From Acidimicrobiia bacterium (GTDB lineage Bacteria > Actinomycetota > Acidimicrobiia > Spongiisociales > UBA5794), in NCBI GenBank assembly GCA_029287195.1, contig JARFRN010000068.1, forward strand, positions 1-38,947: a stretch of 38,947 nt of DNA, in the 5' to 3' direction. The notes beneath the pieces were generated by a model. It ran no database searches, had not been told where the DNA came from, and saw only the letters and a program-made list of their open reading frames with translations. A program made the position numbers and the translations under genes. Each line of letters opens with the position of its first letter. Position 1 is the first letter of the stretch. Positions 23,268 to 30,756 of the stretch are shown piece after piece.

Positions 23268-24269
23268 TTACGACTCCACGTCGCTGCAGACCGTATCCGT
23301 GATGAGCGCAGTCACCACGTAGGGATCCATGTTCGCATTGGGACGCCGGTCCTCGATATAGCCCTTGCCGTCGCGGGCAACCTGCCACGGTATCCGAACC
23401 GAAGCGCCCCGGTCGGATACCCCGTAGTTGTATTCGGTCCAGGGGGCCGTCTCGTGCAAACCGGTCAGGCGCTGCTCGATGCCGGCGCCGTACTGCTTGA
23501 TATGGATATCCGCCTTCTTCCCAAGGGCTTCGCAAGCGGCGATGATGGCGTCGTAGCTATCCCTCATTTCTGCGGTCGAGAAGTTGGTGTGCGCCCCGGC
23601 GCCATTCCAGTCGCCCTGCACCGGCTTCGGCATGAGGTGTGCGGAGATGTCGTGGTCCTCGGCGATGCGATACAGCAACCAGCGGGCCAGCCAGATCTCA
23701 TCCGAGACAGTGACGCCGTCGGCGGGGCCAATCTGGAACTCCCATTGCCCGATCATCACCTCGGCGTTGGTGCCGGAAATGCTCAATCCGGCTGCAATGC
23801 AGGCCTCGGTGTGGTGCTCGACCACGTCGCGTCCCCAGATTTCATCGGCGCCGACACCGCAGTAGTAGCCACCCTGGGGAGCGGGGAAACCGCCGGCCGG
23901 CCAGCCGTGGGGACGGCCGTCCTTGAAGAACGTGTACTCCTGCTCGATCCCGAAGAGCGGTTCATGTGAGGCGTACTTCTCGGCAATGGCAACGGCGTTG
24001 GCTCGAGTGTTGCTCTCGTGCGGGGTCATGTCGGTATTGAGGACTTCACACATGACGAGCTTGTCGTTACCGCCACGAATGGGATCGGGAACCACGCGTA
24101 CGGGGTTGAGCACGCAGTCCGAGGCCTCGCCCGGCGCCTGCTCGGTGCTCGATCCGTCAAAACCCCAAACGGGAGGGGAATCGGCGTCGGGGACGATCTT
24201 GGTCTTGGACCGCAGCTTGGCGGTCGGCTTCTGGCCATCGATCCAGATGTACTCGGCCCTGTAAACCAT
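23268..24269 (-). CDS. glnII: Glutamine synthetase type II (GSII, eukaryotic-type)
   Basis: MVYRAEYIWIDGQ, WGFDGSSTEQAPGEASDC, FGIEQEYTFF, GDWNGAGAHTNFST, RRPNANMDPYVVTALI. Confidence 0.95.
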   Translation of the reverse strand: MVYRAEYIWIDGQKPTAKLRSKTKIVPDADSPPVWGFDGSSTEQAPGEASDCVLNPVRVVPDPIRGGNDKLVMCEVLNTDMTPHESNTRANAVAIAEKYASHEPLFGIEQEYTFFKDGRPHGWPAGGFPAPQGGYYCGVGADEIWGRDVVEHHTEACIAAGLSISGTNAEVMIGQWEFQIGPADGVTVSDEIWLARWLLYRIAEDHDISAHLMPKPVQGDWNGAGAHTNFSTAEMRDSYDAIIAACEALGKKADIHIKQYGAGIEQRLTGLHETAPWTEYNYGVSDRGASVRIPWQVARDGKGYIEDRRPNANMDPYVVTALITDTVCSDVES

Positions 24270-24344
24270 ATTGTTTGGCTCCTTCACATGACAACGCACC
24301 GGACAACCGGAGCCAAGCCCCGGGAATCCGGCGCTCGCCAGTAT

Positions 24345-24393: not shown

Positions 24394-24454
24394 GTTGGCT
24401 ATTCAGGCTGTTCTCGGGGCCCGACCTCGCTTACCATCGCCCCTTGGAGGTGAC

Positions 24455-25747
24455 ATGCAACGGCAAGAGGAATACGTATTGCGGACCGTCGAGGAGCGCG
24501 GAGTGCGCTTTGTGCGGCTGTGGTTCACGGACATTCTCGGATTCCTCAAGTCGTTTGCGATCACTCCGGCCGAGTTGGAATCCGCCTTTGCCAACGGCAT
24601 GCGATTCGATGGATCGGCAATCGACGGGTTCTCCCGAGACCAGGAGTCGGACATGCTGGCTCAGCCCGATCCGACGACCTTTCAGATCCTTCCGTTCAAT
24701 TCAGGAGACGGCAGCGTCGCCCGCATGTTCTGTGACATCGTCACCCCCGACGGTGAACCATTCCAGGGGGATCCCCGCTGGGTGCTGCGCAAGAATCTCG
24801 AGCGGGCTCGCGCCCTCGGATACACGTTCTATGTTGGCCCCGAGGTGGAGTACTTCTACTTCGCCGACGCCGGTCCCGAGCCGCAGACACTCGACCGTGG
24901 CGGCTACTTCGATCTCACGCCGCTCGATGTTGCTCAGCAGCACCGTCGCAGCACAATCGTGGCGTTGGAGCATCTCGGCATTCCGGTCGAGTCTTCCCAC
25001 CACGAGGTCTCCCCGTCGCAGCACGAGATAGACCTGCGCCACACCGATGGATTGACGATGGCCGACAACCTGGTGACCACTCGGCTGGCCATCAAGGAAG
25101 TTGCCATGGAACAGGGCATCTACGCAACATTCATGCCGAAGCCGCTGGAAGGGCACGACGGCTCAGGGCTTCATCTGCACTTATCACTGTTTGCGGGAGA
25201 GGACAACGCTTTCCACGATGAATCGAAGAGCGACAGCCTGTCTGAGGTCGCCCGCGGCTTCATTGCCGGCCTGATCCGGCACGGACGCGAAATCACGGCT
25301 GTGACCAACCAATGGGTCAACTCGTATAAGCGCTTGGTCTCCGGATTCGATGCGCCCGTGCTGTCGGCATGGGATCGCACCAACCAAGCTGCAGTCGTCC
25401 GTATCCCCAGCGTGGCCGGCAATCGGCCGGGCGCCACCCGTATTGAGTACCGCGCCCCGGATCCGGCATGCAACCCCTACCTTGCCTTGTCGACGATCCT
25501 CGTCGCCGGGCTGACCGGTATCGAACAAGGATATGAGCTTGGAGACGGGGAGTCGATCGGATCGGCGGAACGGCTACCGACCACGCTGGCTGAAGCCCTC
25601 GATGCAATGCAAGCATCGTCACTGGTGAAGGACACGCTGGGTGAGCATGTTTTCGAATGGTTCCTGCGCAACAAGCGACGGGAATGGCAGCGCTACGAAC
25701 ATCACGTGTCGCGCTTCGAGCTAGAGCAGTACCTACCGGTGTTGTGA
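24455..25747 (+). CDS. glnA: Glutamine synthetase type I family protein (GlnA2-like; lacks NLYDLPPEE adenylylation motif)
   Basis: QEEYVLRTVEERGVRFVRLWFTDILGFLKS, MRFDGSAIDGF, GPEVEYFYF, MPKPLEGHDGSGLHLHLSLF, RIEYRAPDPACNPYLALS; start at ATG 24455. Confidence 0.92.
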   Translation: MQRQEEYVLRTVEERGVRFVRLWFTDILGFLKSFAITPAELESAFANGMRFDGSAIDGFSRDQESDMLAQPDPTTFQILPFNSGDGSVARMFCDIVTPDGEPFQGDPRWVLRKNLERARALGYTFYVGPEVEYFYFADAGPEPQTLDRGGYFDLTPLDVAQQHRRSTIVALEHLGIPVESSHHEVSPSQHEIDLRHTDGLTMADNLVTTRLAIKEVAMEQGIYATFMPKPLEGHDGSGLHLHLSLFAGEDNAFHDESKSDSLSEVARGFIAGLIRHGREITAVTNQWVNSYKRLVSGFDAPVLSAWDRTNQAAVVRIPSVAGNRPGATRIEYRAPDPACNPYLALSTILVAGLTGIEQGYELGDGESIGSAERLPTTLAEALDAMQASSLVKDTLGEHVFEWFLRNKRREWQRYEHHVSRFELEQYLPVL

Positions 25748-26397
25748 TGTTTGTCGCGGTTTACCCACCGGAACCGACGCAGCCTCTCATCGCAGCCCTG
25801 CTCGCTGCGGGGTACCAGCCGGTGCCGGTTGCGGACTTGGGTGCCTTGGAGTCACGCGTGCCCGACGGTGGGTGGACCGCCGCCGTGGTCGAGGTCACCT
25901 CGGATCTCGGAAGCTCGCTGATGATGTCGGCCAAGATGACAGAAGAGTATGGGCTGCCCGTGCTGCTCCTGATAGACCGCACCATGACGGCCGACATCGT
26001 GGGAGAGACCGGTTTTGCCGACTTCGTGTTGTCACCGGTCGATCGTACCGAGCTGCGGGTTCGCCTGGGCAGGCTCCATACGACTTCTCCGTTGGTCGCC
26101 GATGATGACATCATTCGGTTCCGCGACCTGCAGCTCAACACCGCAACCTATCAAGCAACCGTCGGCGGCGAACCGCGCGACCTCACCTTCATGGAATACG
26201 AGTTGCTGCGCTTCCTCGTCGAGAACCCGGGGAGGGTGTGGAGTCGCGACCAGATCCTCTCCAAGGTGTGGGGATACGACTACTTCGGTGGCTCCCGGAC
26301 GGTCGATGTTCATGTGCGGCGGTTGCGGGCCAAGCTGGGTGAGGAGCGCTCCTCATGGATCACGACGGTGCGGAGCGTGGGATACCGTTTCGGTTGA
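25747..26397 (+). CDS. glnR: OmpR/GlnR-like orphan response regulator with degenerate receiver
   Basis: C-terminal RDLTFMEYELLRFLVENPGRVWSRDQILSKVWGYDYFGGSRTVDVHVRRLRAKLGEERSSWITTVRSVGYRF closely resembles actinobacterial GlnR; ATG overlaps GSI stop (TGATG). Confidence 0.8.
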   Translation: MFVAVYPPEPTQPLIAALLAAGYQPVPVADLGALESRVPDGGWTAAVVEVTSDLGSSLMMSAKMTEEYGLPVLLLIDRTMTADIVGETGFADFVLSPVDRTELRVRLGRLHTTSPLVADDDIIRFRDLQLNTATYQATVGGEPRDLTFMEYELLRFLVENPGRVWSRDQILSKVWGYDYFGGSRTVDVHVRRLRAKLGEERSSWITTVRSVGYRFG

Positions 26398-26456
26398 TTG
26401 TTCCCCGGGTCGCTCTCGCCCGGGTAGGGTCTGTTCAATTGAGCGTGGGAGCGACA

Positions 26457-27065
26457 ATGATCTATCCGGTCGATGTGACTGTTGAGTACGGCAACGGGGA
26501 ACGCAGCCGCGGATTAGCGGTGGCTGGGATCCTGGCTCCGATCAAGATGCTGCTGGCCCTGCCGCACTTCTTCGTGCTGGCGTTGGTCCAATTCGGGGCA
26601 TTCATCGCCGGCTACTTCGGCTTCTGGGTCATCGCATTCACCGGGAAGCTCTCTCCGGGCATCGCCCGCTTCGTCCACAATTCGCTGGGCTGGAACGTGC
26701 GAATTACTGCCTGGTTCGGCAGTCTGCGCGACGAGTACCCGGCATTCGCGCTGGAGCAGCCCGAGTACCAGGCGCGGGTTGTCATCACCGAACCTACGTT
26801 GGAGCGCAGCCGCGGACTTGCCGTGGCCGGCATCATCTGGTTCTTGAAGGGCCTGCTACTGATCCCCCATGTCATCGTCCTGTACTTCGTCGGCATCGCG
26901 GCCGCCATCGCCGGCTACATCGCCTACTGGGTAATTGCGATCACTGGGGTGTATCCGGACGGGATCTTCAACTTCGTCGTCGGCGCGCTGCGCTGGTCAA
27001 CCCGCACTAGTGCCTGGCTCCTCAGCCTCACCGACGAATACCCGCCGTTTGCGCTGCGCGCGTAA
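26457..27065 (+). CDS. DUF4389 membrane protein, internal tandem duplication
   Basis: Two copies of ERSRGLAVAGI...IPH/LPH...W.IA.TG...DEYP.FAL. Confidence 0.85.
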   Translation: MIYPVDVTVEYGNGERSRGLAVAGILAPIKMLLALPHFFVLALVQFGAFIAGYFGFWVIAFTGKLSPGIARFVHNSLGWNVRITAWFGSLRDEYPAFALEQPEYQARVVITEPTLERSRGLAVAGIIWFLKGLLLIPHVIVLYFVGIAAAIAGYIAYWVIAITGVYPDGIFNFVVGALRWSTRTSAWLLSLTDEYPPFALRA

Positions 27066-27203: not shown

Positions 27204-27236
27204 ATGAAGCCACAGACTCGACTTCAGCTCGAGTAG
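27204..27236 (+). CDS. Putative leuS leader peptide MKPQTRLQLE*
   Basis: 10-codon ORF with two Leu codons (CTT, CTC) followed by alternative stems and an intrinsic terminator upstream of leuS. Confidence 0.4.
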   Translation: MKPQTRLQLE

Positions 27237-27262
27237 GCGCAGCCGGCAAATCGTCTGCGCCC

Positions 27263-27296
27263 AACCTCCCATGCCTGCGCTGGGAGGTTTTCTGTT
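27263..27296 (+). terminator. Intrinsic terminator/attenuator hairpin in leuS leader
   Basis: aacctccca-tgcctgcgc-tgggaggtt followed by T-rich ttctgttt. Confidence 0.7.
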
Positions 27297-27348
27297 TCAC
27301 GAAAGGAGAAGCGATGCACAGTCGCACACGAAGGGAGGGCCCGCTCTC

Positions 27349-29166
27349 ATGGCAACTCCCTACCCCGCACACGTTATCGAGGCCCACTGGCGGAAACGCT
27401 GGGAAGAAGCGGAGCTAGGCCGGGTCGACCTCGACTCGGTCGACCCGGCTGACATCTTCTGCAACCTGGTCGAGTTCCCCTATCCATCCGCCGAGGGCCT
27501 GCACGTCGGTCACGTCTTTCGCTACGTGGGCGTCGATGCGTTCGGTCGCTACCAAAGGATGCGCGGGCGTGCCGTGTTCCAGCCGATCGGCTTCGATTCC
27601 TTCGGCATCCACACGGAGAACTACGCGCTGCGGATGGGCGAGCACCCCGCGGCGCTAACGGCGCAAACGACAGCTCGATATCGCGAACAGCTCTCGCGCA
27701 TCGGAGCTGCCTGGGACTGGTCCCGCGAGGTCAACACCAGCCAACCCGACTACTACCGCTGGACCCAATGGATTCTGGTCCGGCTGTTCGAGGCCGGCTT
27801 GCTCTACCAGGAGGAGGCTCCGGTGATCTGGTGCCCTTCTTGTCTGACTGTGCTGGCGCGGGAACAGACCGAGAACGACGGCACGACGTGCGAGCGTTGC
27901 GACTCCCCCGTCACGAAGCGGGTCATGAATCAGTGGTTCCTGCGGATCACGGAGTATGCCGATCGGCTGCTGGACGGTCTCGATGAGCTCGACTGGCCGG
28001 AGCGATCGAAGGAGCTGCAACGCCAATGGATCGGAAGATCGGACAGCGGCTACCGATTGCACGACTGGCTCATCTCGCGGCAGCGGTACTGGGGCCCGCC
28101 CATCCCGATCATCCATTGCCCGGACTGCGGTGCTGTACCGGTCCCGGATTCGGAACTGCCGGTTCAACTGCCGGTGCTCGACGACTTCCGGCCGTCCGGC
28201 GATTCCCCACTGAGCCGGGTCTCGGAGTGGGTCGACACCGCATGCCCCGCTTGCGGCATTCCTGCCAGGCGGGAAACCGACGTCAGTGACACGTTCGTCG
28301 ACTCTGCCTGGTACTTCCTGCGGTACCCGTCGACCGAGTTCACGGACCGCCCGTGGGACCCGGAACGAACCGCAAAGGTGCTGCCGGTCGATTTCTACGG
28401 CGGGGGATCCGAGCATGTGCAGCGGCACCATCTCTATGCTCGATTCCTGACCATGGCAATGCATGATCTGGGCCTGGTTCCATTCGAGGAGCCGGTACCC
28501 CGGATTCGGCTCGGAGGCATGATCGTCCTGGCCGGGGCGAAGATGTCGAAGAGCCGGGGCAACGTGATCTCACCCGACACGTATATCGCCGAACATGGTT
28601 CCGATGTGCTGCGGTGTGCGCTGATGTTCTCTGCCCCGTGGGGCAGGGGCGGCGAGTTCTCCGATCGCAGCATCGCCGGTATTGAGCGATTTCTCACGAA
28701 GTGCTGGCGAACAGTTGAGCAAACGGATGATGGTGATGGCGGCGACATGGCTGCGGTGGTCCAATCGGTCACCGAGGCCATTGAGCGGTTCTCATTCAAT
28801 GTCGGGCTGGCCCGGCTCATGGAGTTTGCGGGTTGGGCGAGGTCCGGCGAGGCCAAGAGCGTGCTGGTTCGATTGCTGGCCCCATTCGCTCCTCATCTGG
28901 CCGAAGAGCTCTGGGAACGCCTCGGCGGACCCTTCTCCGTCCACACTCAGCCCTGGCCCGAGCTTCCCGAATCTCCCGCCGGGCCGGCCGAGGTCGAGAT
29001 CGTCGTCCAGGTGGACGGGCGCCGGCGCGGCGTGGTCGCGGTCCCCGCGGCGGCGGGCAAGGGCGAGGTCGTGGCTGTTGCCCGGCAACAGATCGCAGCG
29101 GTTCCGCCCACCCCCGAGCGCGTGGTCTACGTGCCTGGGCGCGTGGTCAACTTCGTGTCGGCGTGA
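27349..29166 (+). CDS. leuS: Leucyl-tRNA synthetase lacking the CP1 editing domain
   Basis: PYPSAEGLHVGH (HIGH), FGIHTENYA, ELQRQWIGRSDSG directly joined to YRLHDWLISRQRYWG, AKMSKSRGNVISPD (KMSKS), C-terminal VVQVDGRRRGVV...RVVYVPGRVVNFV; ~605 aa. Confidence 0.93.
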   Translation: MATPYPAHVIEAHWRKRWEEAELGRVDLDSVDPADIFCNLVEFPYPSAEGLHVGHVFRYVGVDAFGRYQRMRGRAVFQPIGFDSFGIHTENYALRMGEHPAALTAQTTARYREQLSRIGAAWDWSREVNTSQPDYYRWTQWILVRLFEAGLLYQEEAPVIWCPSCLTVLAREQTENDGTTCERCDSPVTKRVMNQWFLRITEYADRLLDGLDELDWPERSKELQRQWIGRSDSGYRLHDWLISRQRYWGPPIPIIHCPDCGAVPVPDSELPVQLPVLDDFRPSGDSPLSRVSEWVDTACPACGIPARRETDVSDTFVDSAWYFLRYPSTEFTDRPWDPERTAKVLPVDFYGGGSEHVQRHHLYARFLTMAMHDLGLVPFEEPVPRIRLGGMIVLAGAKMSKSRGNVISPDTYIAEHGSDVLRCALMFSAPWGRGGEFSDRSIAGIERFLTKCWRTVEQTDDGDGGDMAAVVQSVTEAIERFSFNVGLARLMEFAGWARSGEAKSVLVRLLAPFAPHLAEELWERLGGPFSVHTQPWPELPESPAGPAEVEIVVQVDGRRRGVVAVPAAAGKGEVVAVARQQIAAVPPTPERVVYVPGRVVNFVSA

Positions 29167-29241: not shown

Positions 29242-30756
29242 CTAGCCGAACTCGATCCCCTGCGCCAGCGGCAGGTCGTCACTCCAGTTGATGGTGACCG
29301 TCTGCCGGCGCATGTAAGCCTTCCACGCATCGGAGCCGGATTCACGACCGCCGCCGGTTTCCTTCTCGCCGCCGAAGGCCCCGCCGATCTCTGCACCTGA
29401 GGTGCCGATGTTGACATTGGCGATCCCGCAGTCGGAGCCTTCGTGCGACAGGAAGCGCTCTGCCGACTTCAATGAGTCGGTGAAGATCGCCGACGAAAGT
29501 CCCTGCGTGACGCCGTTGTTGATCTTGATCGCCTCCGCCAACTCGTCGAACTCGATGAGATAGAGGATCGGTGCAAAGGTCTCCACACCAAGTATCTCGG
29601 CATCGGCCGGCATCTTGATGATGGTCGGCTCGACGAAGAACCCGTCGCGATCGAGCACGTTGCCCCCGTAGAGGACATCACCGCCCTGCTCTTGCGCGAT
29701 GCCGACCGCGGCCGCAAACGTATCGACTGCAGCCTGATTGATCAGCGGCCCCATCAATACGCCGTCCTCGAGCGGGTCGCCGATCGGCACCGAGGCGTAG
29801 GCTTCAGTGAGTCGCTTGGCGATCAGATCCGAGATACCCCGCTGGATGATGAGCCGGCGCAAAGTCGTGCAGCGCTGCCCGGCGGTTCCCACTGCGGCGA
29901 ACAGCGCACCACGAGTAACCAGATCCGGGTCGGCATCGTCCATGACGATGATGGCGTTGTTGCCGCCCAGTTCGAGCAGCGAGCGGCCCAGCCGCTTGGC
30001 CACTGCGGTGCCCACCTTCTCCCCCATACCGCAGGAACCGGTTGCCGAGATCAGCGGCACCCGACCGTCGTTGATCATGGTGTCGCCGACGGTCGCCCCG
30101 GACCCGATCACCAGGTTGAACACTCCCTCGAAGCCGCTACCGGCCATTACCTCATGGACGATATTCGTCACCGCCACCGCGGTCAGCGGTGTTGAGCTCG
30201 ATGGCTTCCAGATCATCGTGTCACCACACACCGCCGCAATGAACGCGTTCCAGCTCCAGACGGCGGTCGGGAAGTTGAAGGAGGTGATGACCCCGACGGG
30301 ACCCAGCGGATGCCACTGCTCATACATCCGATGGCGGGGGCGCTCCGACCCCATCGTGAGCCCATACAGCTGACGGGAGAGCCCAACGGCGAAGTCGGCG
30401 ACGTCGATCATCTCCTGGACCTCGCCGTCTCCCTCTGCCTTGATCTTGCCCATCTCGTATGCGACCAGGGAACCCAATGGATCCTTGTAGTCCCGCAGCG
30501 CGTTGGCCAGCCGCCGCACGTAGCCACCCCGCTCCGGTGCGGGCACCATGCGCCACTCTTCGAAGACCTCCATGGAGTTGGCAACGACCGCCTCGTACTC
30601 TCCGACTGTGGCTTGCTGCACCGAGGCGATCGGTTGCTCGGTAGCCGGGTCGATGCTGGTCAGCAATGCCCCGGTGGTCGGGATCCATCCGGCCGCATAG
30701 GCACCGGCGTTAGGTTCCTCCAGAACAAGTGCGCGCAAAATCTGATCACGGTTCAC
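29242..30756 (-). CDS. Aldehyde dehydrogenase, ALDH7 (antiquitin / aminoadipate-semialdehyde DH)-like
   Basis: WHPLGPVGVITSFNFPTAVWSWN, ELGGNNAIIVMDDAD, GTAGQRCTTLRRLI, GGEKETGGGRESGSDAWKAYMRRQT. Confidence 0.9.
   Translation of the reverse strand: MNRDQILRALVLEEPNAGAYAAGWIPTTGALLTSIDPATEQPIASVQQATVGEYEAVVANSMEVFEEWRMVPAPERGGYVRRLANALRDYKDPLGSLVAYEMGKIKAEGDGEVQEMIDVADFAVGLSRQLYGLTMGSERPRHRMYEQWHPLGPVGVITSFNFPTAVWSWNAFIAAVCGDTMIWKPSSSTPLTAVAVTNIVHEVMAGSGFEGVFNLVIGSGATVGDTMINDGRVPLISATGSCGMGEKVGTAVAKRLGRSLLELGGNNAIIVMDDADPDLVTRGALFAAVGTAGQRCTTLRRLIIQRGISDLIAKRLTEAYASVPIGDPLEDGVLMGPLINQAAVDTFAAAVGIAQEQGGDVLYGGNVLDRDGFFVEPTIIKMPADAEILGVETFAPILYLIEFDELAEAIKINNGVTQGLSSAIFTDSLKSAERFLSHEGSDCGIANVNIGTSGAEIGGAFGGEKETGGGRESGSDAWKAYMRRQTVTINWSDDLPLAQGIEFG

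Follow-up and report, generated by a model that had tools for sequence, protein, structure and literature searches.

A leucyl-tRNA synthetase without its editing domain, apparently under leucine control, as a candidate reserve enzyme in Acidimicrobiia

Introduction

Why would a bacterium that already has an editing leucyl-tRNA synthetase (LeuRS) keep a second one that lacks the editing domain, CP1? Mycoplasma mobile has a CP1-less LeuRS as its only LeuRS, and loss of LeuRS editing is also known from microsporidia; both have been interpreted as genome decay with mistranslation as its result. A first-pass annotation of 38,947 nucleotides from an Acidimicrobiia genome (the whole of contig JARFRN010000068.1, hereafter the window) pointed to a LeuRS gene of this kind and offered three meanings for it: statistical mistranslation, reliance on trans-editing, or a second, specialised enzyme. 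Here we follow that gene through its relatives, its genomic site and its upstream region. The reading that we narrowly favour from these comparisons is that it encodes an active accessory leucyl-tRNA synthetase without cis-editing, held behind a leucine attenuator as a reserve.

Results

The gene (27349..29166, forward strand) encodes a protein of 605 residues that scores 600.3 bits against the bacterial LeuRS model TIGR00396 (leuS_bact), above the curated cut-off of 548.4. Alignment puts 14 residues between WIGR and the tryptophan of the RDW/HDW block, at a junction reading WIGR-SDSG-YRLHDW (28027..28068, forward strand), against about 191–231 in nearly all full-length LeuRSs aligned; the CP1 editing domain, about 185 residues, is missing, while the catalytic, zinc and tRNA-binding parts are retained. 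Reading frame, coordinates and span thus agree with the original description of a clean loss in which WIGRSDSG runs straight into the block that follows. A displaced CP1 would have overturned that description, and no CP1-equivalent sequence was located elsewhere in the 605 residues: the matches to TIGR00396 and to the solved LeuRSs are broken into pieces that flank the gap.

The elements described as intact are all present in the alignment with solved LeuRSs, and all lie on the forward strand: the HIGH-type motif HVGH (residues 52–55; 27502..27513), KMSKS (residues 398–402; 28540..28554), eight zinc-type cysteines flanking the CP1 junction (27832..28254; C162, C165, C181 and C184, then C257, C260, C299 and C302) and a C-terminal tRNA-binding domain (residues 547–603; 28987..29157), recognised by alignment with Thermus thermophilus LeuRS and by the strands and helix of the structure model. 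F316, S319, Y322, H356, H360 and D83 align with T. thermophilus F501, S504, Y507, H541, H545 and D80, which we take to be residues of the leucine pocket; the Met40 position is occupied by Glu42, a glutamate common to the full-length sister enzymes L011 and L025. The leucine-specific insert before KMSKS is absent, but this is not special, since most LeuRSs aligned, the sister group included, have the short form. An AlphaFold model of all 605 residues, the modelling that the annotation had recommended, adopts a CP1-less LeuRS fold (pLDDT 92.4), and Foldseek superposes it at 2.4 Å on M. mobile LeuRS (3ziu_B; 572 alignment columns, 36% identity). Comparison with its relatives shows purifying selection on the gene: NG86 dN/dS is about 0.13–0.2, with dS near saturation.

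The same genome (G000; 3.59 Mb, 83% complete) encodes a full-length housekeeping LeuRS on contig C46 (5764–8598), with a CP1 span of 208 residues and the TTRPDT and HDERD motifs; the search for a second leuS proposed at the outset therefore succeeded, and the objection that a CP1-less LeuRS might simply be typical of the lineage's housekeeping enzyme does not apply. The zinc-type cysteines of the paralog are absent from this housekeeping LeuRS, so that the two enzymes may differ in their need for zinc. Besides G000, a separate full-length, CP1-bearing LeuRS was found in G003, G005, G007, G023, G028 and G030; the OFTM10 genome has a second LeuRS-like match, and in G004, a genome 77% complete, no housekeeping LeuRS was found. 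With an ordinary editing LeuRS present, proteome-wide statistical mistranslation is not supported as the default. The idea of trans-editing divides in two. When the 83% complete assembly was searched with the CP1 region, the only meaningful matches were to the LeuRS genes and to one further large synthetase of class I; no freestanding CP1 gene appeared, which leaves the idea of a dedicated factor for trans-editing unsupported. The housekeeping LeuRS itself, on the other hand, may edit in trans.

In phylogenetic trees, the paralog clade (100/100 support) has as its sister group the LeuRSs of one Thermomicrobiales and one Rubrobacter genome, on a wider branch that includes LeuRSs of Gemmatimonadota, Chloroflexota and Patescibacteria, and a LeuRS of the paralog's type is the sole LeuRS found in seven sister-branch genomes tested. 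The housekeeping LeuRS groups with those of Dehalococcoidia. This placement on different branches excludes a recent duplicate of the genome's own LeuRS and, together with the separate full-length enzyme, excludes the paralog as the housekeeping LeuRS of the lineage. Acquisition from outside, and not duplication, appears the likeliest origin.

The gene is patchily present at one genomic site. In the window and in G003 it lies between a gene for a DUF4389 protein (Pfam; 26355..27065, forward strand; synteny in G001, G002, G003 and G006) and one for an aldehyde dehydrogenase of the L-piperidine-6-carboxylate dehydrogenase family (29242..30756, reverse strand; synteny in seven of seven congeners); G004 has it at the same site, with a response regulator in place of the DUF4389 protein, and G005 has the aldehyde-dehydrogenase side in common. 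In the congeners G001, G002 and G006 the same flanking genes are adjacent and the LeuRS is cleanly absent; the flanking proteins of G001 are mostly 87–96% identical to the window's. Because three congeners have the identical locus without it, the paralog is accessory, and with a full-length LeuRS bearing intact CP1 motifs elsewhere in the genome, the proposal of a second, specialised enzyme is supported. Among the genomes compared, mostly metagenome assemblies, the paralog was found in 8 of 50 from the family, 8 of 138 from the order and 8 of the 396 sampled from the class, as well as in the Acidimicrobiales assembly OFTM10.

No tRNA genes adjoin the locus in the window, and two ortholog loci have a few non-leucine tRNAs. 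The window also holds a diverged, shortened glutamine-synthetase-like gene (23271–24299), divergent to a GlnA-type gene (24395–25747). In G005, where relatives have the DUF4389 gene, a small non-ribosomal peptide synthetase (NRPS) cluster lies directly upstream of the CP1-less LeuRS (locus L121, contig C17, 1–9519), comprising a stand-alone amino-acid adenylation enzyme, a PigA/RedW-like prolyl-carrier dehydrogenase, a C-A-T NRPS with hydrolase, a separate hydrolase and a phosphopantetheinyl transferase (PPTase).

Upstream of the gene, on the forward strand, lies a short open reading frame, MKPQTRLQLE* (27204..27236), with the leucine codons CTT and CTC just before its stop; a first hairpin begins at that stop codon (27236..27261; z −3.2) and is followed by an intrinsic terminator, CCTCCCA...TGGGAGG then TTTTCT (27263..27293; z −4.3). 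The order of leader peptide, hairpin and terminator recurs in nine of nine orthologs with readable upstream DNA, the G423 enzyme described below included; the G007 gene, which starts at a contig end, is outside this set. The last five residues of each leader peptide (MKPQTRLQLE, MKPYTRLQLN, MKTNTRLQLM, MKPQTRLQLM, VIQSTNSRLLRM, MLQPIISRLLRL, MLQSTNTRLLLT, VTGLIFHVLLLE and MKPFSCSLLLT) hold two or three leucines. CTT is used in all of them and accounts for 15 of the 25 leader leucine codons, against 8% of leucine codons in the window, the leaders being related and not independent draws. All nine have a terminator hairpin with a T-rich tail (z −1.9 to −6.6), and the regions after the stop fold more stably than dinucleotide shuffles, by 3.8 to 10 standard deviations. 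The arms of the first hairpin change while pairing is kept: GCGCAG/CTGCGC in the genus, GCGAGC/GCTCGC in other genera and GCGGGCGCC/GGCGCTCGC in G423. A second small open reading frame, 34 residues and REGPLSW-like (27314..27418, forward strand), runs in another frame across the LeuRS start; it is present in eight of the nine leaders, its conservation coinciding in part with the LeuRS ribosome-binding site; translational coupling with the LeuRS is possible.

This upstream region thus has the apparent layout of a ribosome-mediated leucine attenuator. No such leader-type structure precedes the housekeeping leuS in G000 or in G003. A generic terminator scanner did not call the terminator at 27263..27293, and a promoter scan found nothing; against Rfam, three ortholog loci had no match at the gathering threshold, and the window region had two weak matches only, both outside the leader. 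The conserved first hairpin does not overlap the terminator, so both can coexist, and since we resolved no mutually exclusive antiterminator pairing, the switch itself is one that we infer. The first-pass annotation missed this control region, as it missed the intermediates and the independent losses to which we now turn.

Within the paralog clade and its sister group, the span across the CP1 site takes values of 14, 19, 117 and about 195 residues. Six orthologs (G004, G007, G023, G028, G030 and OFTM10) carry a mini-CP1 of about 100 residues (span 117) that retains the TTRPDT, YGTG..MGVPAHD.RD and HP motifs and is without the middle and distal CP1; the OFTM10 structure model is confident across this region. 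Three orthologs have no CP1: the window and G005, each with the 14-residue span, and G003, with 19 residues and a different junction, the nine residues EVDGNSGVR where the window has SDSG. Since G003 does not group with the window and G005 in trees, and since G004, with its mini-CP1, pairs with G005 in the flanking-gene tree, CP1 was likely lost twice within the genus; a single loss was not rejected there (p-AU 0.08–0.16).

CP1-less LeuRSs also occur further afield. A plasmid search recovered them on plasmids of Aulosira laxa NIES-50, Nostoc sp. MS1 and Kovacikia minuta, two of the plasmids being typed conjugative; they are about 47% identical to the window protein, and their neighbour in the tree is a Bacillota LeuRS that has a full CP1. 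One common loss for cyanobacteria and Actinobacteria is rejected (p-AU 1e-43), and the cyanobacterial loss is certainly independent of the actinobacterial one. In an actinobacterium of another family (G423, locus L187), a CP1-less LeuRS with a span of 25, in which the HVGH motif reads HVGA, branches as sister to the entire paralog family (100/99), which by parsimony implies another loss; the HVGA substitution means that aminoacylation may be altered there. At least two independent losses are certain and three or four probable, a count that depends on sampling. Phages are not the apparent source: the LeuRSs of the best phage records match in two pieces, as ordinary LeuRSs do, and no CP1-less LeuRS was seen among these best matches. 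A viral-contig scan with the window protein returned no relative; the same scan with a cyanobacterial protein returned four, at 36–43% identity.

The cyanobacterial plasmids have surroundings of their own. Just upstream of their three LeuRS genes (L162, L163 and L164) they have in common a tiny open reading frame, M(M)H(D/H)WDL*, and after it a hairpin of the GGATC/GATCC type; this may be a separate leader. On the Kovacikia plasmid the dihydroxy-acid dehydratase gene ilvD (L164, 12902–14746) is divergent from the CP1-less LeuRS, so that two branched-chain amino acid functions adjoin; on the Nostoc plasmid an NRPS/PKS gene with P450 and AMP-binding genes (L188, 25505–34489; NZ_AP023443.1, 120504–129488) lies about 18–21 kb from it.

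Discussion

How might a reserve synthetase of this kind work, and how might it lose its editing domain? When charged tRNA-Leu runs low, above all the species that read CTT and CTC, ribosomes would stall at the leucine codons of the leader; stalling would prevent termination, the reserve LeuRS would be made, and Leu-tRNA would be restored. Because the paralog would act part-time next to an editing LeuRS able to re-bind and clear mischarged tRNA, cis-editing would be dispensable, and its CP1 could decay from the full domain still seen in sister LeuRSs, through a mini-CP1 with catalytic motifs, to none. The leader is also found ahead of the orthologs with a mini-CP1, so use as a reserve would predate the loss. 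The natural trigger may be starvation or inhibition of the main LeuRS; the NRPS cluster in G005 and the plasmid copies hint at inhibition.

That hint opens onto a possible but, in our estimate, unlikely alternative: that the paralog is an inhibitor-insensitive spare which bypasses the main enzyme as a drug target, induced by the drop in Leu-tRNA when the main LeuRS is inhibited. The attenuator logic fits induction of this sort, as do the gene's patchy presence at one locus and its ancestry on another LeuRS branch than the housekeeping enzyme, the small NRPS cluster with its PPTase beside the G005 gene, and the unrelated CP1-less LeuRSs carried by cyanobacterial plasmids, two of which type as conjugative. 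Lacking CP1, the spare would also resist inhibitors whose action is to trap tRNA at the editing site, and the benzoxaborole-type resistance raised in the first-pass annotation is possible. Yet G005 is a single case, with no biosynthetic cluster by the window gene or the other orthologs examined, and the mini-CP1 orthologs, behind the same leader, retain their editing motifs, so that absence of CP1 cannot be the original resistance trait. We know of no natural CP1-site inhibitor. The bolder generalisation, in which accessory LeuRSs without editing serve again and again as a mobile bypass of natural LeuRS inhibitors, CP1-site ones included, and are induced as Leu-tRNA falls, strikes us as doubtful; if true, their spread across actinobacteria and cyanobacterial plasmids would imply unknown natural antibiotics that target LeuRS.

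We consider it improbable that the enzyme supplies leucyl-AMP or Leu-tRNA to some other pathway, in peptide biosynthesis or sensing. A non-translational role of this sort has been proposed for LeuRS-I of Sulfolobaceae and LeuRS2 of haloarchaea, published accessory LeuRSs can be poorly active or have their CP1 disrupted (PMC9437257), and an NRPS cluster does adjoin the G005 ortholog; but the C-terminal tRNA-binding domain and all aminoacylation motifs are kept, no partner gene is conserved across genera among the ortholog loci examined, and control through leucine codons points to tRNA charging. Harder still to credit is regulated mistranslation, in which norvaline, isoleucine, valine or methionine would deliberately be let into leucine codons under leucine stress. 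The window LeuRS is without cis-editing and would be made just when ratios of non-cognate amino acids to leucine are high, and misincorporation is on record for an editing-deficient Mycoplasma LeuRS and for a LeuRS editing-domain deletion (PMC7373986); against this stand the editing LeuRS in the same genome and the editing motifs conserved in the mini-CP1 of six orthologs, which argue against selection for error. Damage to the gene or an assembly artefact, to which the large in-frame gap relative to ordinary LeuRSs and a fragmented, 83% complete assembly might point, can be dismissed: CP1-less orthologs are encoded in three genomes, G003 and G005 independently of this assembly, the frame is open, dN/dS is well under 1 and the fold is confident, so that the gene is undamaged, as first described.

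Here a CP1-less LeuRS occurs in bacteria with larger genomes, as an extra copy and under apparent leucine control, with a half-size CP1 intermediate surviving and with losses at least twice, probably three or four times, independently. The series of full, mini and absent CP1 offers natural material with which to measure what the domain contributes to aminoacylation, and could show whether, in trans, a housekeeping LeuRS does the editing for its partner, and whether these extra copies confer tolerance to LeuRS inhibitors; it makes testable the question of why bacteria retain an error-prone spare.

Each feature of the system has a known counterpart from which it departs. Like M. mobile LeuRS (PDB 3ziu), the window enzyme is bacterial, has no CP1 and keeps an otherwise complete LeuRS fold; unlike that enzyme of a small-genome parasite, it is an accessory second copy with a leucine-codon leader, and its aligned junction segment is 4 residues shorter than that of M. 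mobile, which has a compensating nonapeptide linker. It resembles Sulfolobaceae LeuRS-I and haloarchaeal LeuRS2 in being an accessory LeuRS duplicate; but whereas the archaeal LeuRS-I has a disrupted CP1 and a divergent C-terminal domain and is reported to be unable to aminoacylate (PMC9437257), the window enzyme has all motifs and a bacterial C-terminal domain. Anabaena ThrRS T2 (thrS2), an editing-defective second synthetase that is made only under stress and forms heterodimers with an editing-competent subunit (PMC4787780), likewise stands beside an enzyme that can edit, and any clearing of mischarged tRNA in trans by the housekeeping LeuRS would resemble that pair; T2 is under zinc/Zur control and its editing domain is impaired, whereas here control is by a leader peptide and the domain is deleted. 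Finally, the classical leuS attenuators predicted in Streptomyces (PMC1262725) share the leucine-codon leader peptide and terminator ahead of a LeuRS gene, but here it is a separate accessory LeuRS that is controlled, and the housekeeping gene that has no leader.
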